Positions 24,634 to 36,752 of a stretch of 64,000 bases of DNA are shown here, in pieces. This DNA is from Bradyrhizobiaceae bacterium (GTDB lineage: Bacteria; Pseudomonadota; Alphaproteobacteria; Rhizobiales; Xanthobacteraceae). Each line of letters begins with the position of its first letter. The first letter of the stretch is position 1. Position numbers and translations under genes: made by a program. The stretch covers positions 25,733-89,732 of the forward strand of contig RXJJ01000009.1 in the NCBI GenBank assembly GCA_003963145.1. Direction: 5' to 3'. The notes under the pieces were generated by a model, which searched no databases, had not been told where the DNA came from, and saw only the letters and a program-made list of their open reading frames with translations.

Positions 24634-26379
24634 TTACCGGTTATCCTTCGATGCCGCAAGAATAAGGCGGTCGGACGGCGGCAGGTCGAAGCGCGGGGCG
24701 ATCCCGAGCAGTGGCGCGATTCGGGCAATGACATTGCCCCCGGTTGGCACGGCGTTCCAGCCGGAGGTGATAAAACCGTGGGTTTCAGGGAGCGCCTGCG
24801 GCTCGTCCAGCATGACCAGCAGCTGGTATTTCGGGTTGTCGGCCGGCAGGATGGCGGTGAAAGCATTGAGCACGCGCTTCTTGGCATATTTGCCGTTGAT
24901 GACCTTTTCAGCGGTGCCTGTCTTACCCCCGATATAATACCCTTTGACGTCAGCCTTCTTGGCGGTGCCGACTTCGGCGTTGAGGCGCATCAGGTAGCGC
25001 ATCTTGTCGCTGGTTTCGGTCTTGATGACCTTGCGCGCCAGCGCCATGGCTTCGGCTTCGGTGCGCTTGAGAAAGGTCGGCGGAATGAGATAGCCGCCAT
25101 TCACCAAGGCATCGATGCCCATCACCGCCTGCAGCGGCGCCACCGCCATGCCGTGACCGAACGCAATGGTGATGGTGTTGAGATCACTCCAGTGGCGCGG
25201 CAACAGCGGCGAGGCGCTTTCCGGCAATTCGGTGCGAAGGCGCGTCATCTGTCCCATCTTGGCGAGGAACGCCTTGTGCGCCTCGACGCCTTGCTGAAGC
25301 GCGACGCGCGCTGCGCCGACGTTGGATGAGTAGGTGAAGACTTCCTTGATGTTGATGAAGCGGCCGAGCGGATGGTCGTCGTGAATCGTGAACTTGCCGT
25401 ATTGCAGAGGCCCGCGGGCATCCACCGTCGAGTTCAGATTGATCTTGCCGGAATCCAGACCCATCGCCAGCGTGAAGGCCTTGAAGGTCGATCCCATTTC
25501 GTACACGCCCGTCGTCAGGCGGTTGATGCGGTCGGGATCGTTGGCCTCCTTGGGATTGTTCGGATCGAAGTCCGGCAATGAGACCATGGCGACGATCTCG
25601 CCGGTCCTGACATTTGAGACCAGACCCGATGCCGCCTTGGCGTGAAATTTGTCCTTGGCCTTGATGAGTTCATCGCGCAGCGCATGCTCGACACGCAAAT
25701 CGACCGCGAGCTGGATCGGTTCCTGCTGCCGGTCGGTGGCGAAGCCCGCGCGGTGCAGATCGGCAAGGCCGTTGCCGTCGAGCCATTTCTCGATGCCGGC
25801 GATGCCCTGGTTGTCGATATTGACCAGACCGATCAGATGCGAAACTTCCGGCCCGGTCGGATAGACACGCTTGTTCTCGCGCAAAAAACCGACGCCGGGC
25901 AGACCGAGCTTGAACACATCGCGCTGCTGCTGCGGCGTGAGCTCACGTTTGAGCCAGACAAAGCCCTTGCGCGACGACAGGCGGTCGCGCACTTCGCCGG
26001 CATCAAGATCGGGCAGCGTGCCGGTGAGAAGCTCGATAGCCTCGTCCTTGTCGATCAGCTTGCGCGGCTCGGCGAACAGCGAAGACGCCTTCACGTCGGT
26101 CGCGAGAATTTCGCCGTTGCGATCCAGGATATCTGGGCGCGCGGTGGCGATAGCATCCTGCGAGGAGGCGCGCCGCGTGCCATGGCTGTCGCCGATAATC
26201 GCATACATCATCAACCGTGCGGCGATGACCGCGAACACCATCGCGAAGGCGAGGATGGCGAGCCCGACACGCGCACGAGCCTTGGCGGCCCTGTCGACGT
26301 TGCGGCCATAGAGAAGCGTGCGGATCAGGCGCTGCCGCAGCGACTCTGAGGGTTTTCCGATGTGGATCACGTGGGTCAC
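24634..26379 (-). CDS. ftsI: Penicillin-binding protein 3 / peptidoglycan transpeptidase FtsI
   Basis: 581 aa. SxxK in '[11 protein letters not shown]', SxN '[12 protein letters not shown]', KTGT '[12 protein letters not shown]'. Confidence 0.97.
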
Positions 26380-26768
26380 CGCGGCATCCCCTGCTTTGGC
26401 ACGGAGCCGGTGGTGTCCGGAGCGGCATTATCGCCCGCAATCGTATCGATCATGGTACCGAGCGGGTCCGGATCGCCGGGTTTGGTAAAGCTCGGCGGAC
26501 GCGGCGGCAGATTCTTCAGCTGATCGAACTGCGATGCGTCGATCGGCCTCAATGTGAGGTGACGTTCGGCAAGACCCTGCAGGCGGCGCGGCGATGTCAG
26601 CGTCGACCATTCGGCGCGCAGCGCCGCGATCTGGTTGCGTTCCTCGCGAATATCGGCGCGCAGGCGGACGACACGTTCGGTCTGCACCGTCGATTCCATC
26701 TTGATGCGGTAGACATAGGCGGCCGCGACCACCAGCGAACAAATGACAAGGAAGTGGATGATCCTCAC
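26376..26768 (-). CDS. ftsL: Cell division protein FtsL
   Basis: Small bitopic protein with coiled-coil; 4-bp overlaps with rsmH and ftsI. Confidence 0.88.
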
Positions 26769-27808
26769 GACCGCCCTCCCCTCATCACGCTCGCCAATGT
26801 CGGCCAGCCGAAGGGTTCGTCTTCAGGATATGCCAGAGCCTGCGTGCGCCGGGCGGCGCGCAGCTTCGCCGATCGCGCGCGCGGGTTGGCCGCGACTTCG
26901 GCTTCACTTGCGACTACCGGACGCTTGGTCAAAATCTCGAAACTTGGTTCGACCCTCCGGGCTTCGGGCAAGTGACGCGAGCCGCCGCCGCCCTTCGCCC
27001 GCTCGTTGAGAAAATTCTTCACGATGCGGTCTTCGAGCGAATGGAATGTCACCACCACCAGACGGCCGTCCGGCTTCAGCACATGTTCGGAGGCCGTCAG
27101 CGCGGTCCGCAATTCGTCGAGTTCTTCATTGACGAAAATCCGCAAACCCTGAAACGTCCGCGTCGCCGGATGAATTTCACCGGGCTTGGCGCGCACCACG
27201 CGGGCGACGATGTCGGCCAATGCCCTGGTGGTCGTGATCGGTGCTTCGGTCCGCGCCTTAACAATGGCCCGTGCGACGGCGCGTGAGTGACGTTCCTCGC
27301 CGAAGATATAGATGACGTTGGCAAGATCGGCTTCCGAGGCTTTCGCAACCACATCGGCGGCGGACGGTCCGTCCGATCCCATCCGCATGTCGAGCGGCCC
27401 GTCATTGCGGAACGAGAAACCGCGTTCGGCGCGGTCGAGCTGCATCGACGACACGCCGATATCCATGACGACGCCATCGACCTTGCCGCCGGCCTGCGCG
27501 GCACAGATCGCCTCGAGATTGGAAAAGCGATCCTCCACCAGCGTGAGACGACCCTTAAAGCGATCGACCAGGTCGAACCCGCCTGCAATGGCGGTGCGAT
27601 CGCGATCGATGCCGATCACACGCGTGCCGGGTACATCGAGAATAGCGCGGCTGTAGCCGCCGGCGCCGAATGTCGCGTCCACATAAAGAGCGCCATCATG
27701 CGGAGCCAGAAAGTTCACAGCCTCCTGGCCGAGAACGGGGATATGGCGTGCGTCTGTGCGTGCGATCATCCCGCGTCGTGCTCCCTCGGCAAGACTGGCA
27801 GTCCGCAT
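26765..27808 (-). CDS. rsmH: 16S rRNA (cytosine(1402)-N4)-methyltransferase RsmH (MraW)
   Basis: '[36 protein letters not shown]', '[23 protein letters not shown]'. The start may be internal (27769). Confidence 0.97.
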
Positions 27809-27970
27809 GAAATTTGATGGTCTGCCATGGGAGTTCGAGCACCAATGGAACCGCGGATGGCGCGAATTTGGGCGCGATTCTTCACCCTTTAGTAGCGGTA
27901 ATTATCCTTAAGGAATCGTTGACGGACCGGAAATAGCCGCCCGCATGAAGCACCCGGCGGTTCAATCCAT

Positions 27971-28004
27971 TTTCAGCCGGATTGGCTGGTAAGCCGGCTT
28001 GAAA
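27971..28004. other. Intergenic hairpin downstream of the AraC-type gene
   Basis: 'tttcagccgg-attggctggtaa-gccggcttgaaa', stem with one bulge. No clear U-run. Confidence 0.35.
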
Positions 28005-28010
28005 TCACCC

Positions 28011-28931
28011 TCAACGGGATTGCCGGAACTGTCCTGGTGTTGCACCGACCAGCCGCCTGAAAACGGTTGAAAGGTGACTCTGGCTGGAAAATCCGGTTTC
28101 CAGCGCGATGTTCACCACCGAGGTGTCGGTGGCAAGTAGCAAATGCTTGGCGCGTTCAAGCCGGCGCGTCAGGACGTATTGGTGGATGGTTAATCCAAAC
28201 ACCTCGCGGAAAGATCGCGTGAGGGCCTGCGGAGACAGGCCTGCCTCGCGGGCGAGGCTCGCGATGTCAAGATTCTCGCCGAGATGCGCCTCGATATACT
28301 CCGGCAAACGCCGCAACGCGGGCGTGTCGGCGACAAGCATCGAATCGGCTTTCGCCACAGAGCCGGTCTGCCGTTGCAGCAGATGAAGAATGAGCGCGTT
28401 GACCAGACCGTCGACATACAAATTCGAGACGCCTGTCTCCGGCGCTTGAACCGCCTGCAGAAGCGACAGCGCGATCTGCTCCATGAACGGATCGTTCGAC
28501 CCGAGGCTGAGCTCGAGTGCGACACTGTCTTGCGCCTGGCTTGATGCCGCGCGGGCTAATTCATCGATCAACTCCTGTCGAAGATACAGCATCAGCATGT
28601 CCGACGATCCGTGCCGCAGCCAATCCATCCCTTCATGAGCGGGAAGAATGAAAAACTCGCGCGGACGGATCGTGGCCTGTTCGATCTGCCCGGTGTTTTC
28701 GAGACGGCGGTAAAGATAAGCGGGACGGTGCAGGCAATATGCGAGACAAGGATGGCCGGTCGATTGCAACGATCCCGACCAGCTGTTGACTTGGGCCAGC
28801 GCGGCGTAGACGTTTTTCCAGCCCCGGCCGGCGCTTTCGATCAGCAGGGTGTTCATCGGCATGTACGCGATCTTGTGAGTATCGCTTACGCCGAGTTCAG
28901 CCTCGAATTTCTGGGTCTGAGGAAACTGCAT
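28011..28931 (-). CDS. AraC-family transcriptional regulator
   Basis: C-terminal double HTH: 'LDIASLAREAGLSPQALTRSFREVFGLTIHQYVLTRRLERAKHLLLATDTSVVNIALETGFSSQSHLSTVFRRLVGATPGQFRQ'. The ORF extends to 29138; the likely start is at 28931. Confidence 0.92.
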   Translation of the reverse strand: MQFPQTQKFEAELGVSDTHKIAYMPMNTLLIESAGRGWKNVYAALAQVNSWSGSLQSTGHPCLAYCLHRPAYLYRRLENTGQIEQATIRPREFFILPAHEGMDWLRHGSSDMLMLYLRQELIDELARAASSQAQDSVALELSLGSNDPFMEQIALSLLQAVQAPETGVSNLYVDGLVNALILHLLQRQTGSVAKADSMLVADTPALRRLPEYIEAHLGENLDIASLAREAGLSPQALTRSFREVFGLTIHQYVLTRRLERAKHLLLATDTSVVNIALETGFSSQSHLSTVFRRLVGATPGQFRQSR

Positions 28932-29015
28932 TTCTTTCGTCCAGGCGCATGTTTTTCGCGCCAGCGCAGGTTTCCGAATTTGATCACACCCAAGTTTTTT
29001 TTGAAAGAACAAGAA

Positions 29016-29064
29016 TTGTTGGATCGCTAGCTTTCGAGAGAGTTCGCAAAAGCCGATCCAACAA
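29016..29064. promoter_or_regulatory. Candidate operator: perfect 11-bp inverted repeat in the araC-like/MFS divergent spacer
   Basis: TTGTTGGATCG (29016-29026) and CGATCCAACAA (29054-29064), 27-nt spacer. Confidence 0.55.
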
Positions 29065-29186
29065 ACAGGCAAATGATCGCCGGTTGAGCAGGTTTTGCAG
29101 TTCAAATGTGCAGAGGCCAACAAAATTCGTTGGTTCATCCGCTGCCCGGAACAATGTTTGAAACACAGTTCAAAGCGAGGAATGAA

Positions 29187-30875
29187 ATGGTGAGCATTAC
29201 GATGTCCACGTCAGCGCAAGCCGCCCCGACGGACAATGTCCCGCATCAGGGCCTCACGCGTGAAGAATTCAAGATCATCAGCGCATCGTGCGTCGGAACG
29301 GTGATCGAGTGGTATGACTTCATACTTTTCGGTGCAATTGCGCCCGTCATCGGCAAGCAGTTTTTCGCAAGCACCAATCCCACAACCGGACTGATCTTCG
29401 CGCTGCTCGCGTTCTCCGCGGCGTTCATCATCCGCCCGTTCGGCGCGATCGTGTTTGGCCGTATCGGCGACCTGATCGGCAGGAAATATACGTTTCTGAT
29501 AACGATCCTGATCATGGGCTTGTCGACATTTGCGGTCGGCCTGCTGCCGACCTATGCCAGCATCGGTATCGCCGCTCCCTGCATTCTTATCGCAATGCGC
29601 CTGCTGCAGGGTCTCGCCATCGGCGGCGAGTATGGCGGCGCGGCGGTGTTCGTTGCCGAACATTCACCCGACGGCAAGCGCGGTCTTTATACGTCATGGA
29701 TTCAGACAACCGGAACGCTCGGTGTCTTCCTCTCGCTGTTCGCCATCTTCGTCACGCGCTCTTACTTCGGAGAGCAGGCACTGGCCGACTGGGCCTGGCG
29801 CCTGCCGTTCCTGGTCTCGATCCTGCTTCTGGCAATTTCTGTATGGATGCGACTTGCGATGCAGGAGTCGCCGGTATTTCTCCAGATGAAGGCCGAAGGC
29901 CGCCAGTCGAACGCGCCGATCAGTGAGGCGTTCGGCCAATGGAAAAATCTTAAAATCGTGATCGTCGCGTTCGTGCTGTCCGCCGGCTTCGGCGTGATCT
30001 GGTACACGACACAACTCTACACGCTGATCTTCATGACCCAGACGCTGAAGATCGATGGCTGGACCGCCAATCTGATTGTGATGTTGTCACTGCTGCTCGC
30101 AACGCCATTTTTTGTGGCGTTCGGCTGGTTGTCCGACAAAATCGGACGCAAGAAGGTGATCCTGTCGGGGATTTTCCTCGCCGCCCTCGCGCTGTTCCCG
30201 ACCTTCAAAGCGATGACCCATTTCGCCAATCCCGCGCTGGAGCGCGCCGTTGCATCTTCGCCCGTGACAGTGATCGCCGACCCGGCTGATTGCCAGTTTC
30301 AGTTCAATCTGACCGGAACTTCGAAATTCACCTCGTCGTGCGACGTTGCGAAAGCCAAGCTGGTCTCGCTCGGCGTCAGCTACCGCAATGAAGCAGGCGC
30401 GAGCGGCCAGCCTGCGAGTATCCGGATCGGAAATACGGTCATCCCCTCCATCGACATCGCCCAGCTCTCCAAGGAAGACGGCGTCAAGCAGATGGCTGCG
30501 TTTTCGAGCGCCGTAACGAAGGCGATCGCGGATGCCGGCTATCCGTCAAAAGCCGACCCGGCCCAGGTGAATGTGCCGATGCTGTTGGCATTGAACTTCA
30601 TGCTGGTTTTCCTGCTCGCGGTTGCCTACGGCCCCGTCCCCGCGCTTTTGGTCGAACTGTTCCCCACTCGCATCCGCTATTCGTCACTGTCGCTGCCCTA
30701 CCATCTGGGGACCGGCTGGTTTGGCGGCATGGTCCCGACCATCGCCGTCGCGATGGTCGCCTACACCGGCAACATTTACTTCGGACTGTGGTTTCCGGTC
30801 GCCGTGGCGCTGTTCGCGGTCACCGTGAACTTCTTCTGCCTCCGCGAAACCAATGGAACTGACATCAAGGCTTGA
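29187..30875 (+). CDS. MFS transporter, metabolite:H+ symporter (MHS)-like, with a periplasmic insertion
   Basis: 'VGTVIEWYDFILFGAIAPVIGKQFF', 'RPFGAIVFGRIGDLIGRKYTFLITI', 'AIGGEYGGAAVFVAEHSP'. About 120-aa non-TM segment before the C-terminal helices. Confidence 0.92.
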   Translation: MVSITMSTSAQAAPTDNVPHQGLTREEFKIISASCVGTVIEWYDFILFGAIAPVIGKQFFASTNPTTGLIFALLAFSAAFIIRPFGAIVFGRIGDLIGRKYTFLITILIMGLSTFAVGLLPTYASIGIAAPCILIAMRLLQGLAIGGEYGGAAVFVAEHSPDGKRGLYTSWIQTTGTLGVFLSLFAIFVTRSYFGEQALADWAWRLPFLVSILLLAISVWMRLAMQESPVFLQMKAEGRQSNAPISEAFGQWKNLKIVIVAFVLSAGFGVIWYTTQLYTLIFMTQTLKIDGWTANLIVMLSLLLATPFFVAFGWLSDKIGRKKVILSGIFLAALALFPTFKAMTHFANPALERAVASSPVTVIADPADCQFQFNLTGTSKFTSSCDVAKAKLVSLGVSYRNEAGASGQPASIRIGNTVIPSIDIAQLSKEDGVKQMAAFSSAVTKAIADAGYPSKADPAQVNVPMLLALNFMLVFLLAVAYGPVPALLVELFPTRIRYSSLSLPYHLGTGWFGGMVPTIAVAMVAYTGNIYFGLWFPVAVALFAVTVNFFCLRETNGTDIKA

Positions 30876-30879
30876 TCCC

Positions 30880-31329
30880 ATGACACTCCATCAACGCAAG
30901 AAACCCGACGCCATGTTCAAAAAAATCGCTGTGACTCCTGAGGAAGTCGACACCATCGTCTCGAGCTGGACCACAGCCAAGACACTCTGCGACCCGGAAC
31001 AAACTGGCGGCAACATCAGTGCTGTCGCGCTCTACTTCAAACCGGGTCAGGGCCATGCGCGTCACAATCATCCCGAAACCGAGCAGCTGATCTATGTGAT
31101 ATCGGGCAAAGGCGAGATGATGATCGAGGAACCGGATGGAACCCAGATCAAGCAGACGATCACCGGTGGAAGTCTGGTCAATATTCCCAAGGGCGCCTAT
31201 CACTCGACGTTCAACACCGGTTGGGAAGCGTTACGTGTTTTCGCGGTCTATTCGCCTCCCGGACCGGAATCGGTGATGCGCAATTCGCCCGAGTTCACGA
31301 TTTTTCCACCGGGTGAAGTGCCTCGCTAA
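30880..31329 (+). CDS. Cupin domain protein
   Basis: 'ALYFKPGQGHARHNHPETEQLIYVISGKGEMMIEEPDGTQ' plus second motif 'GSLVNIPKGAYHSTFNTGWEALRVFAVYSPPG'. Confidence 0.9.
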   Translation: MTLHQRKKPDAMFKKIAVTPEEVDTIVSSWTTAKTLCDPEQTGGNISAVALYFKPGQGHARHNHPETEQLIYVISGKGEMMIEEPDGTQIKQTITGGSLVNIPKGAYHSTFNTGWEALRVFAVYSPPGPESVMRNSPEFTIFPPGEVPR

Positions 31330-31355
31330 CGGCAACAGTATATTCCGAAAAAATG

Positions 31356-31384
31356 CGCCGTCCGAAATTTCGGACGGCGTTTTT
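31356..31384 (+). terminator. Rho-independent terminator after the cupin gene
   Basis: Palindrome CGCCGTCCGAAATTTCGGACGGCG followed by 'TTTTTG'. Confidence 0.88.
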
Positions 31385-31536
31385 GTCGGCTATCAAAGCA
31401 TCGGCACAGACGTCACAAGTTCGGGTGTGGATAAATCCGGTTCCATCCGGAGATTGAATTGCTCGTGACGGTTCATGACGAAATAGTGACAGCAGTATCA
31501 GGGTGCCGCCGCTCTCCTGCCTGGATTGGTTGTCAA

Positions 31537-32409
31537 ATGTCGTTTTCACCAGCCTTCGCCGAACCGCCCCGTGCAGCGGCGCGCGTTCCGCATCGTCCAG
31601 GATTCAAGAGCGACATGAGTTTTCTGCCGGATTCGTCCGTCGTCTCCGACGTGACGCCGTCGGCCAATTTCAACGACCGCAAGAACGGCCGTGCGCCCGA
31701 CATGATCGTACTGCACTACACCGGCATGGCCGACGCTGAGAGCGCGATCTCGCGTCTGTATACTGCGGGCACCGAAGTGTCCGCCCATTACGTCGTGCTG
31801 GAGGATGGCGGCATCGTGCAATGCGTGAAGGAGAGTTTGCGGGCCTGGCACGCCGGTTCTTCGTCATGGGCGGGCGAAACCGATATCAATTCCGCCTCCA
31901 TCGGAATCGAGATCGTCAATCGCGGCCACGATCTTGGCTATCCGGATTTTCCGCTGCGCCAGATCGCAGCCGTGATTGCACTGTGCAAGGGTATCTCGCT
32001 GCGGCGAAATATCCCGAAACATCGCGTGCTGGCGCATTCGGATATCGCCCCCGGACGCAAGAAGGATCCCGGCGAGAAATTTCCCTGGCGGTTGCTTGCG
32101 GATTCCGGCGTCGGGCACTGGGTCGAGCCCGCGCCCATCGTCCGCAGTGAAAGCAAGATGCTCGGCGCCAGCGGCGATGAAGTGATGTCACTCCAGCGCG
32201 CGTTGGCCAATTACGGCTATGACGTGCGGCCATCGGGACAGTATGACGGCATGACAATGGATGCGGTGGCGGCCTTCCAGCGTCACTTCCGTCCCGACCG
32301 CGTGGACGGCGTGGCGGATTACTCCACACTGGCGACGTTGCGCCAGCTTCTGGAAACAATCCCGGCCGAAACCGGCAAGCCGGATTTGCTTCACCATCTC
32401 GCCTTTTAA
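31537..32409 (+). CDS. N-acetylmuramoyl-L-alanine amidase (Amidase_2) with C-terminal peptidoglycan-binding domain
   Basis: 'MIVLHYTGMADAESAI', 'VSAHYVVLEDGGIVQCV', 'HSDIAPGRKKDPGEKFPW', PG-binding 'VMSLQRALANYGYDVRPSGQYDGMTMDAVAAFQRHF'. Alternative start at 31615. Confidence 0.93.
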   Translation: MSFSPAFAEPPRAAARVPHRPGFKSDMSFLPDSSVVSDVTPSANFNDRKNGRAPDMIVLHYTGMADAESAISRLYTAGTEVSAHYVVLEDGGIVQCVKESLRAWHAGSSSWAGETDINSASIGIEIVNRGHDLGYPDFPLRQIAAVIALCKGISLRRNIPKHRVLAHSDIAPGRKKDPGEKFPWRLLADSGVGHWVEPAPIVRSESKMLGASGDEVMSLQRALANYGYDVRPSGQYDGMTMDAVAAFQRHFRPDRVDGVADYSTLATLRQLLETIPAETGKPDLLHHLAF

Positions 32410-32468: not shown

Positions 32469-32888
32469 GTCAGTCGGCCGGACGGCCGCTCTCGCAAGGA
32501 TCGAAAGGTCGCGGGGGAGGAAAGTCCGGGCTCCATCGACATACGGTGCCGGATAACGTCCGGCGGGGGCGACCCCAGGGACAGTGCCACAGAGAACGAA
32601 CCGCCTTTGTTTCGATAAAGGTAAGGGTGAAAAGGTGCGGTAAGAGCGCACCGGATGTCCGGCAACGGAGATCGCATGGCAAACCCCACCGGGAGCAAGA
32701 CCGAATAGGGACGGCATAGCGGCAAGTTCGTTTTCGAACGATAACTCCGCGGGGCGATGTCAGGCTCGCTGTCCGGGTAGGTTGCTTGAGGCGCGGGGTA
32801 ACTCGCGTCCCAGAGGAATGGCCGTCACGTCTTGAACGGTGCGAACCATTCAGGGCCCTACAGAACCCGGCTTACAGGCTGGCTGACG
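32469..32888 (+). ncRNA. rnpB: RNase P RNA, bacterial class A
   Basis: Core 'gaggaaagtccgggctcc', 'cagggacagtgccacagagaac', 'ggtaagggtgaaaaggtgcggtaagagcgcacc', 3' core 'acagaacccggcttacag'. P1 pairing of 32469-32479 (gtcagtcggcc) with 32877-32887 (ggctggctgac). Confidence 0.96.
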
Positions 32889-32937
32889 ACCGCATGAACA
32901 CGCAATTAAACCGGCGTGAACTGTCATGTGGACCAAT

Positions 32938-32989: not shown

Positions 32990-34588
32990 CTAGTGCGCGC
33001 CGCCGCCCGCGCCGGCGCCCGCCTTCGGCTTGTTGACGAACACCACGAGGATGCTGAGCCCGACATAGAAGAATGTCAGCATGTAAAACGCATCGCCGAA
33101 CGCCATCACCGTCGCCTGCCGGTGCGCGATCATCGACAGTTCCTTCAGCGCCATCATCGCCGCATCGCCCATACCCTGAAATTTCTGCGTCAGCGTGTTG
33201 AGCAAATCGACCGCGGCGGCGCTGCCCCAGTTCATCCGGTCATGCAGGCGATCAATGTGAAAATCCGTTCTGTCGTTGAGAACTTCATTGATGAGAGCAA
33301 GTCCGACCGCGCCGCCAAGATTACGCGTCAGGTTGAAGAGGCCGGAGGCGTTCTTCATCATCGAGGGCGCCAGCGTGCCGAGCGCGATGTTGTTGACCGG
33401 GATCATCGCCAGCATGATGCCGACGCCGCGGAAGATCTGCGGCCACAAGAGTTCGTAGAAATCGAAATCGCGGGTAATCCACGTCATCTGCCAGGTGCTG
33501 GCGGCGAAGATCAGAAGTCCGGCCGCGATCATGTAGCGCGGATCGAGCCGCGTCATCAGCCGGCCGGCCAGCGGCGCCGCCACGAACATCGCAAGACCCG
33601 ACACGAACATGGTCTCGCCGATCATCACCGGGCTATAGCCGCGCACCTCGGCGAGATAGCGCGGATACATATAAGTCATGCCATAAAGGCCGATGCCGAC
33701 GCAGAACGAGAAGATGCTGCCGATGGCGAAGTTGCGGTTGGTGAAGGCGCGGATATCGACGATCGGCTCTTTCGCGGTCAGCACGCGCCAGAAGAACAGC
33801 ACCGTGGACACCGCGCAGATCATGCCCATGATCGCGACGGACTCGTCCTGGAACCACTGATATTGCGGCCCCTCTTCCAGCACATATTCCATTGCGCCGA
33901 GAAAGCCCGCCATCGTAATGAGGCCGAACCAGTCGAAATGATCGAGCAGCGCCAGATTCGGCTCGTCGAAATCGACCAGCGCCAGCACGCCGAGCGTGAC
34001 GCCGATGCCGGGCAGCACGTTGATGAAGAAAAGCCAGTGCCACGACATCACGTCGGTGATGTAGCCGCCCACCGTCGGGCCGATGGTCGGCGCGAGCGTC
34101 GCGACAAGGCCGATCACGGGCGTGACGATCGGCAGCTTGCTGCGCGGGAAGATCGTATAGGCGGAGGCGAACACCGTCGGGATCATGCCCGCGCCGAGAA
34201 AGCCCTGCACCGCGCGCCACAGGATCATCTGATCGATGTCGGAGGTCAGGCCGCACATGAAGCTCGCGCCGGTAAAGCCGGCGGCGGACATCGCGAACAG
34301 GATGCGGGTGCCGAACGCGCGGGACAGGAAGCCCGACAGCGGAATCGCGATGACCTCGGCGATCAGATAGGCGGTCTGCACCCACGACACTTCGGTGGAG
34401 GACGCGGACAGCCCGGCCTGAATGTCGGAGAGCGATGCGGAGACGATCTGAATGTCCAGGATCGACATGAACATGCCGAACACCATGATGACAAACGCGA
34501 TCATCCGCTTCGGATCGACCGCTTCCTCGGAAGCAGCCACCGAAGGCGCGGGAATATCGGCCGGTCCTGTTACTGTTGTGGAGGACAT
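32990..34588 (-). CDS. DHA2-family MFS multidrug transporter (EmrB-type)
   Basis: 14-TM-like protein: 'LDIQIVSASLSDIQAGLSASSTEVSWVQTAYLIAEVIAIPLSGFLSRAFG', 'GPTVGGYITDVMSWHWLFFINVLPG'. Confidence 0.93.
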   Translation of the reverse strand: MSSTTVTGPADIPAPSVAASEEAVDPKRMIAFVIMVFGMFMSILDIQIVSASLSDIQAGLSASSTEVSWVQTAYLIAEVIAIPLSGFLSRAFGTRILFAMSAAGFTGASFMCGLTSDIDQMILWRAVQGFLGAGMIPTVFASAYTIFPRSKLPIVTPVIGLVATLAPTIGPTVGGYITDVMSWHWLFFINVLPGIGVTLGVLALVDFDEPNLALLDHFDWFGLITMAGFLGAMEYVLEEGPQYQWFQDESVAIMGMICAVSTVLFFWRVLTAKEPIVDIRAFTNRNFAIGSIFSFCVGIGLYGMTYMYPRYLAEVRGYSPVMIGETMFVSGLAMFVAAPLAGRLMTRLDPRYMIAAGLLIFAASTWQMTWITRDFDFYELLWPQIFRGVGIMLAMIPVNNIALGTLAPSMMKNASGLFNLTRNLGGAVGLALINEVLNDRTDFHIDRLHDRMNWGSAAAVDLLNTLTQKFQGMGDAAMMALKELSMIAHRQATVMAFGDAFYMLTFFYVGLSILVVFVNKPKAGAGAGGGAH

Positions 34589-34627
34589 GACGTGCCTCGC
34601 CCGATGGCGCTTAGCGCCGCCGCGCTC

Positions 34628-35911
34628 TTAGTTCGCGGCGGATTTCGATGATGTCTCTTGTGCCGCCGCGTTCTGTGCCGACTGCGGTTCGGCTTTTGTG
34701 TTGACGCTGACGATCACCGACATGCCCGCGCGCATCAGATGCTCCTTGGCATCGGCTTCCGAAACGTGGACACGAACCGGCAACCGCTGCACGATCTTGG
34801 TGAAGTTGCCCGTCGCATTGTCCGGCGGCAGCAAAGTGAATACCGAGCCGGACGCCGGCGCGAGGCTTTCCACTACGCCGTCGAAAGTGCGGCCACTGAC
34901 AGCATCAACAGAAATGCTCACATGCTGCCCGGGGCGGATCCGCCCAAGCTGGGTCTCCTTGAAATTGGCGTCGATATAGACGTCATTCAGCGGCACCACA
35001 TTGGCAAGACGCTGGCCGACCTGAATGTAATCGCCCGCGTTGACCATGCGGTTGGAGAACACGCCGTCCACCGGCGCACGCACCGTGGTGAACGCAAGAT
35101 CGCGCTCCGCCTTGGCGAGCGAGGTCTTCAGTTCGGCAAGCTGGCCCTTGGCCTCGGCCTGCTGCGCGTTGATGACGTCAACCTGCGCCTGCGCGGCATC
35201 GAGCTGTGCCTGCGCGCCCTGCAGGCTGGCGACCGCCTGATCGCGGCCGGCCTTCGACACATCATAGGTGGCTTTCGATGCGAATCCCTTTGCGCTCAAT
35301 TCTTCCTGACGGGCGAAATCGGCCTGCGTGCGCTCGACCGCCGCCTGCGCCGAAGCCACCTGCGATTTTGCCTGATCAACCGCGCTCTGCTGCGCCAGCG
35401 CCTGCTTGCCGATGCGTTCGATCGTCGCTTCCTGCGTTCCGATCCTGGCCTTGGCATTGTTGACGGCGATCACGTAGTCACCATCGTCGATCTGGAACAG
35501 CAGATCGCCTGCCTTCACTTCACTGTTATCGCCAGCTGCAATTTTTGAAATGTATCCCGCAACCTTGGCGCCCAGCACGGTGTTGTTCGCACGCACATAG
35601 GCGTCGTCGGTCGTCACCCAGAAGCGTCCGACGAGCAGGTAGTGAATGCCGAAATAGACCGCGGCGAGCGCCGCCAGCGCGCCAATGCCCATAAACACCT
35701 TGCGGCGAAGTCCGGATTTGGCCGGGGCGGCCTTCTTTTGCTTTTTACCTTTCACCGGCGCTTCGACCACAGGTGCTTCGGCCGGAGCCTTGCCGGTCTC
35801 CCGAGGGGCGGAAGGCTGCTGCGGCCGCGCGGGTTCTGCCGCTGCAGATCCATCAGTCTCCTCGATAGGGCGAAGCAACCGGGCAGCTTGATCGCGTGCA
35901 GGGAGGGCCAT
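34628..35911 (-). CDS. HlyD/EmrA-family efflux adaptor
   Basis: N-terminal TM, 'WVTTDDAYVRANNTVLGAKVAGYI', long coiled-coil, 'FTTVRAPVDGVFSNRMVNAGDYIQVGQ'. Confidence 0.93.
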   Translation of the reverse strand: MALPARDQAARLLRPIEETDGSAAAEPARPQQPSAPRETGKAPAEAPVVEAPVKGKKQKKAAPAKSGLRRKVFMGIGALAALAAVYFGIHYLLVGRFWVTTDDAYVRANNTVLGAKVAGYISKIAAGDNSEVKAGDLLFQIDDGDYVIAVNNAKARIGTQEATIERIGKQALAQQSAVDQAKSQVASAQAAVERTQADFARQEELSAKGFASKATYDVSKAGRDQAVASLQGAQAQLDAAQAQVDVINAQQAEAKGQLAELKTSLAKAERDLAFTTVRAPVDGVFSNRMVNAGDYIQVGQRLANVVPLNDVYIDANFKETQLGRIRPGQHVSISVDAVSGRTFDGVVESLAPASGSVFTLLPPDNATGNFTKIVQRLPVRVHVSEADAKEHLMRAGMSVIVSVNTKAEPQSAQNAAAQETSSKSAAN

Positions 35912-36007
35912 CGCTATGATCCTGAACCATTATTCTGGCAAAAGGCCGGATAATGCCAATCGGCACGCTTTCTGGCCCTGTTGAAACCTCGGTAAATAGC
36001 ATTTAGG

Positions 36008-36030
36008 ATTGACCGAACCGTTCGGTCAAT
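36008..36030. promoter_or_regulatory. TetR-type operator candidate
   Basis: Perfect 11+1+11 palindrome ATTGACCGAAC-C-GTTCGGTCAAT in the spacer between the divergent emrA-like and tetR-like genes. Confidence 0.82.
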
Positions 36031-36113
36031 AGTAAATACGTCTCAGTCTTCAAATATTTTGATCCATATCTACCAATGGCTTCGGGGTTCCCATTATAGG
36101 TTAGTGTACAGCC

Positions 36114-36752
36114 ATGAACTCACCTGCCCCCTCCATGCCGGTCGCCGCCGGCGACGAAGACAGTGCCAAACGCCGCCAAATCCTTTTGGGCGCGCGGCAG
36201 GTTTTTCTCGATCTCGGTTTCGATGGCGCCAGCATGGGCGAGATTGCCAAGGCGGCGGGCGTTTCCAAGGGTACGCTCTACGTTTACTTCACCGACAAGC
36301 ACACGCTGTTCGAAGCGATGTGCGAATGCGAGATGCGCGTCCAGGGCATCGAGAAGCTGAGCATCAATCCGGACGATGATGTCGCCAGCGTGCTACGCAA
36401 ATTTGGACAGAGCTATATGGAGCTGCTCTGCCGGCCCCAGGGCGGCTCAACCATCCGCACCATCATGGCAATCGCGGAGCGCATGCCCGAGCTTGGGCGT
36501 CGCTATTATCATAACGTCCCGGCCAACTGGATCGGCAAGCTGGCGGACTATCTCAACAACCAGACCGCCGCCGGCCGTCTCGACATCGGCAATACGGAGC
36601 TTGCGGCTTCGCAGTTTCTGATGAGCTGTCAGGCTACGCTGTTCCTGCCCTTCATCATGCAGGTGTCGCCGCCGCCGAGCAGCGAGCGGATCGCCGAGGT
36701 GGTCGAGAGCGCGGTGCGGATGTTCTTGGCGGCGTATCAGGTCAAGTCGTAG
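36114..36752 (+). CDS. TetR/AcrR-family transcriptional regulator
   Basis: HTH 'RRQILLGARQVFLDLGFDGASMGEIAKAAGVSKGTLYVYFTDKHTLFEAM'. Confidence 0.95.
   Translation: MNSPAPSMPVAAGDEDSAKRRQILLGARQVFLDLGFDGASMGEIAKAAGVSKGTLYVYFTDKHTLFEAMCECEMRVQGIEKLSINPDDDVASVLRKFGQSYMELLCRPQGGSTIRTIMAIAERMPELGRRYYHNVPANWIGKLADYLNNQTAAGRLDIGNTELAASQFLMSCQATLFLPFIMQVSPPPSSERIAEVVESAVRMFLAAYQVKS

Follow-up and report, generated by a model that had tools for sequence, protein, structure and literature searches.

The mraZ gene is usually the first gene of the dcw cluster, and its product is among the most conserved bacterial regulators. In the DNA analysed here (the window, 64,000 nucleotides of contig RXJJ01000009.1 from a Bradyrhizobiaceae bacterium), the cluster opens directly with rsmH, and a module of AraC, MHS-transporter and cupin genes lies upstream. 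What became of mraZ, and from which promoter does the operon now run? A first-pass annotation had proposed that the module entered between rsmH and the amidase/rnpB block, and that in doing so it may have displaced or deleted mraZ and left the operon with a different promoter and control. We consider it very probable that mraZ was lost in an ancestor, that the module arrived later and in this species only, and that the dcw operon runs on a retained, probably CtrA-timed promoter. The dcw head and its ancestral neighbours lie in the window as follows:

24634-26379, minus strand: ftsI/pbp, dcw head, after ftsL
26376-26768, minus strand: ftsL, dcw head, after rsmH
26765-27808, minus strand: rsmH (PF01795, E 2e-101; TIGR00006 equivalog, E 1e-96)
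31459-32409, plus strand: AmpD-like N-acetylmuramoyl-L-alanine amidase (PF01510, E 2e-33), the ancestral divergent neighbour of rsmH
32470-32890, plus strand: rnpB, RNase P RNA class A (RF00010, 312 bits)

The gene order rsmH-ftsL-ftsI is that of MraZ-controlled dcw operons, such as those of E. coli and Neisseria elongata; unlike in these operons, mraZ and the intact operator are both gone. The annotated ATG of rsmH (27808) is probably 13 codons too early and the likely start is codon 14 at 27769, because homologues begin near codons 14-20 and the alignments of most of them open at about residue 20. Gene calls and profile searches bear out that only 202 bp separate rsmH from the co-directional araC-like gene, that no mraZ is present and that the AraC/MHS/cupin module lies upstream.

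The absence extends to the whole genome (3.86 Mb, 99.8% complete, 32 contigs). Neither the window nor the remainder of the assembly gave a MraZ match with Pfam PF02381, and a family-specific MraZ profile, built in this analysis, found none in this genome even at E<=1. The family profile is sensitive: of 150 family genomes sampled, 145 were good, and it recovered mraZ in 67 of these, with E<1e-70 in nearly every case (66 of 145 by PF02381). Within the window's own genus, PF02381 found mraZ in 0/9 genomes, and the family profile at E<=1 gave nothing credible in 29 of 29 genomes, several of them single-contig; the best genus match (E 0.12) lay in an unrelated frame. It might be argued that mraZ is present and was missed through divergence or an assembly gap, given an assembly of 32 contigs in which ctrA itself is divided between two contig ends. 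However, the region upstream of rsmH lies wholly inside the window, and together with the uniformly negative genus and the decay of the MraZ operator described below, this leaves a missed gene scarcely credible.

Every sampled member of a clade of 12 genera lacks mraZ, Rhodopseudomonas included (genus g26; L198, a contig of R. infernalis, and L200 of G137 are identical). In an RsmH tree, which is a single-gene quick tree, the 55 rows without mraZ from these 12 genera make up one starred group (98%), and five losses are needed across the family, that of the clade and four elsewhere. In an order-wide sample, mraZ was present in 200 of 286 good genomes, so that its loss is recurrent and not the rule. 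Also order-wide, 31 of the 117 sampled genera, other families included, had no mraZ match, which makes further independent losses likely.

Stubs of mraZ persist directly upstream of rsmH in two of the lineages that lack the gene. Inside the clade, genus g24 (L193, L194 and L054) retains an N-terminal fragment, beginning MGLFVSSLILRLDAK, directly before rsmH; outside the clade, g11 (L177, L072 and L180) retains C-terminal fragments at the same place. With scores of 12-21 bits, these stubs stand clear of 20 shuffled sets, in which the highest score was 6.6. The window's own genus shows no such stub. The position of the stubs beside rsmH argues that mraZ decayed in place. Taken with the distribution of the gene, comparison shows an in-place loss in the ancestor of the 12-genus clade: mraZ is missing from this bacterium because of an old loss, in an ancestor that it shares with about a dozen genera.

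The module itself is a real insertion, and on this point the first-pass annotation was right. Its features are:

27925-31475, no strand: inserted segment of about 3551 bp, in place of about 107 bp of ancestral amidase-rsmH intergenic DNA
28011-29138, minus strand: AraC-family regulator (PF12833, E 7e-27), likely start about 28931
29106-30875, plus strand: MHS-type metabolite/H+ symporter (TIGR00883, 346.7 bits, below the curated cut-off of 443; PF00083), likely start about 29187
30853-31329, plus strand: single-domain cupin (PF07883, E 4e-11)
31355-31380, no strand: bidirectional terminator-like hairpin after the cupin gene (11-pair stem and T-tract, both strands)

In G162 (L115), the closest relative by RsmH, the site is empty: in a blastn comparison with the window, homology resumes at 27924 and at 31476, and therefore about 3551 bp took the place of about 107 bp. 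All 41 clade loci read with flanks (24, and 17 more of the genus) lack the module and have the amidase gene as the immediate, divergent neighbour of rsmH. A segment found in one species, with an empty site in relatives and collinear flanks, has the features of a recent horizontal insertion. Its G+C content is slightly lower than that of its surroundings, 52-60% against mostly 59-67%. There is no mobility gene (integrase or transposase) among the module genes, and no long flanking repeat pair was found around the module.

No close homologue of the cupin occurs in the 28 other genomes of the genus, where the best-scoring match is 26% identical. The best relative of the AraC regulator among 399 family genomes is 49% identical, and an alignment search of GTDB contigs with strict patterns returned only two relatives, at 51% and 45%, so that no donor could be identified. 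When the cupin and MHS proteins were searched against plasmids, no relative reached 60%; those of the symporter borne on plasmids are 54-58% identical. In L197 and L199, relatives of the cupin (56-61%) adjoin relatives of the AraC regulator as a convergent pair; the pair in L197 stands beside genes for a CoA-transferase III, a glutathione S-transferase and an oligopeptide ABC system, and oligopeptide ABC genes are also near the pair in L199. In the module, the AraC gene is divergent from the symporter-cupin pair. The neighbourhoods in L197 and L199 suggest a catabolic or uptake role for the module genes, which would be unrelated to division.

Did this insertion remove mraZ and exchange the promoter? 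The displacement reading correctly holds that a module entered upstream of rsmH and that mraZ is truly absent. However, mraZ is likewise missing from all sampled relatives that are free of the module, and there too the amidase and rsmH are neighbours, which is the very arrangement that the first-pass annotation had named as speaking against displacement. Furthermore, a conserved promoter block and a decayed MraZ operator remain between the insertion and rsmH, and the proposed change of promoter is not supported. We thus regard displacement or deletion of mraZ by the module, with a swapped promoter, as extremely improbable; comparison shows the module to be a later insertion, separate from the loss of mraZ and confined to this species.

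The two retained elements upstream of rsmH are:

27908-27922, minus strand: CtrA-like box TCAA-N7-TTAA (TCAACGATTCCTTAA), in the conserved rsmH promoter block
27806-27831, minus strand: decayed MraZ-operator relic CCCA-N6-ACCA-N6-TTCA-TG, with 9 of the 12 operator bases, which runs up to the annotated rsmH ATG

Only 2 bp separate the CtrA-like box from the insertion upstream of it. In the window, the box has 7 of the 8 bases of TTAA-N7-TTAA, the mismatch lying in the first half-site. TCAA-N7-TTAA or a one-base variant was found upstream of rsmH in 42 of 42 clade sequences, against a chance expectation of 2.9% per sequence; as the clade sequences are related, this figure is a conservation footprint and not 42 independent tests. 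When about two dozen clade sequences, drawn from 12 genera, were aligned, the mean identity per column rose from 43% before the box to 92% within it, and was 77% over the next 35 nt. A box of the same type precedes mraZ in 34 of 49 genomes that have the gene, which indicates that the box is older than the loss. The genome carries a ctrA orthologue, in two contig-end pieces (C22 and C23) that are 91-92% identical to a CtrA query.

Known MraZ operators, as in E. coli, consist of TGGG repeats at 10-bp spacing. In all 49 mraZ-containing genomes (23 genera), a CCCA-N6-CCCA-N6-CCCA triad is found 56-200 bp upstream of mraZ, perfect in 41 and with one change in 8 (11-12 of 12 operator bases). On the opposite strand this triad reads as three TGGG repeats with 10-bp spacing, and so matches the three repeats of MraZ-regulated dcw operons. 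The perfect triad is found in 0/69 genomes without mraZ; a score of 11 of 12 is reached in six of these, all of them clade members. The independent losers g11, g21, g29 and g31 are likewise without an intact triad. The relation between mraZ and operator comprises only 3-5 independent contrasts, too few to test for significance; in almost all random pairings, every contrast points the same way.

A decayed relic of the operator survives in part of the clade. In the six genomes that score 11 of 12, it is of the CCCATGG type and lies at the place that matches the intact operator, some 90-100 bp beyond the CtrA-like box on its downstream side. The window contains no intact TGGG-repeat operator, only the relic with 9 of 12 bases, at the equivalent position about 90 bp downstream of its box. 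A conserved ATG follows the relic; it was considered as the start of a leader peptide or of a mini-MraZ and rejected, the frames differing between genera. In the clade alignment described above, the relic has a mean column identity of 74%, against 62% for the spacer before it and 57% after it. This might mean that the relic is still under selection and that another, non-orthologous DNA-binding regulator replaces MraZ there, working with CtrA; we hold this to be unlikely.

Which factor acts at the conserved box? A CtrA motif has been predicted upstream of mraZ in S. meliloti, with the consensus TAA-N7-TTAAC (PMC3616915), and the box at rsmH resembles those of CtrA-linked alphaproteobacterial promoters in its TTAA-N7-TTAA type, its promoter-like position and its place before a cell-division operon. 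As a putative CtrA site, it differs from them by one mismatch, in the first half-site. We infer that CtrA probably binds at this box. In Rhodobacter sphaeroides, direct activation of mraZ-mraY by NtrX has been demonstrated (PMC7240162) and CenR has been located at the promoter of mraZ (PMC9275681), so that regulators besides CtrA are plausible at a dcw head. The box could accordingly be the site of NtrX, CenR or some other regulator that replaces MraZ, all the more as it is one base off the CtrA consensus in all clade members. That only part of the mraZ-containing genomes have a CtrA-type box also speaks against CtrA. Yet the spacing and sequence of the half-sites fit both TTAA-N7-TTAA and the S. 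meliloti consensus, and the motifs reported for NtrX (GCA-N9-TGC) and CenR (TGA-N8-TGA) do not describe the conserved block. A non-CtrA factor is thus possible, though clearly the less likely assignment.

Control could also have passed to the newcomer, if the inserted AraC has been recruited in this species to drive the dcw operon or to modulate it. The gene is co-directional with rsmH and close to it, and no terminator-like hairpin was found on their shared strand between the two (27809-28010), so that read-through from araC into the dcw operon is possible. The ancestral promoter is nevertheless intact downstream of the insertion, and AraC relatives elsewhere adjoin cupin genes, away from dcw genes. 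Co-option appears quite improbable to us.

The preferred history is one of ancestral loss followed by a much later insertion. In the ancestor of the 12-genus clade, mraZ was lost in place, as the comparison shows; the TGGG-repeat operator then decayed, while the promoter with its CtrA-like box remained and came to head rsmH directly. Much later, as comparison also shows, about 3.55 kb carrying the AraC regulator, the MHS symporter, the cupin and the terminator entered between this promoter and the divergent amidase gene. Transcription of the dcw genes would start at the ancestral promoter, with CtrA probably setting its timing and without MraZ feedback. Apart from possible read-through, the AraC regulator would act on the uptake/cupin pair rather than on the dcw genes. 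From the sequence, an ancestral, probably CtrA-linked promoter acting without MraZ feedback is the most likely control of the operon.

Loss of mraZ is a known kind of event. The gene was lost in multicellular, longitudinally dividing Neisseriaceae, and its deletion in N. elongata lowered the expression of the first dcw genes (PMC9395523); loss is also known in Mollicutes (PMC5138195). As in the Neisseriaceae (PMC9395523), the loss described here is lineage-specific and sits atop an otherwise intact dcw cluster. However, the neisserial loss tracks a change of cell shape, whereas the present one spans 12 alphaproteobacterial genera and could be traced through operator decay and stubs. In Rhodobacter sphaeroides, response regulators likewise act at the dcw head, there alongside MraZ (PMC7240162, PMC9275681); that species retains mraZ, and the published NtrX and CenR motifs differ from the box conserved here. 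In the freely accessible literature that the search covered, we found no report of mraZ loss in this alphaproteobacterial group. The present case is new, and operator decay and stubs make it unusually well resolved. About five losses have been mapped in the family, together with stubs, matched operator decay and a CtrA-type promoter that stayed in place. It thereby offers a natural set of knock-outs, which permits a direct test of dcw control with and without MraZ in close relatives; a MraZ operator is predicted in about half of the family.

Past rnpB, at 32990-36752, the window continues with a DHA2-type MFS pump, an HlyD/EmrA-like protein and a TetR-like regulator, names that come from reading the sequence and not from a family search; this block is conserved in many members of the clade.
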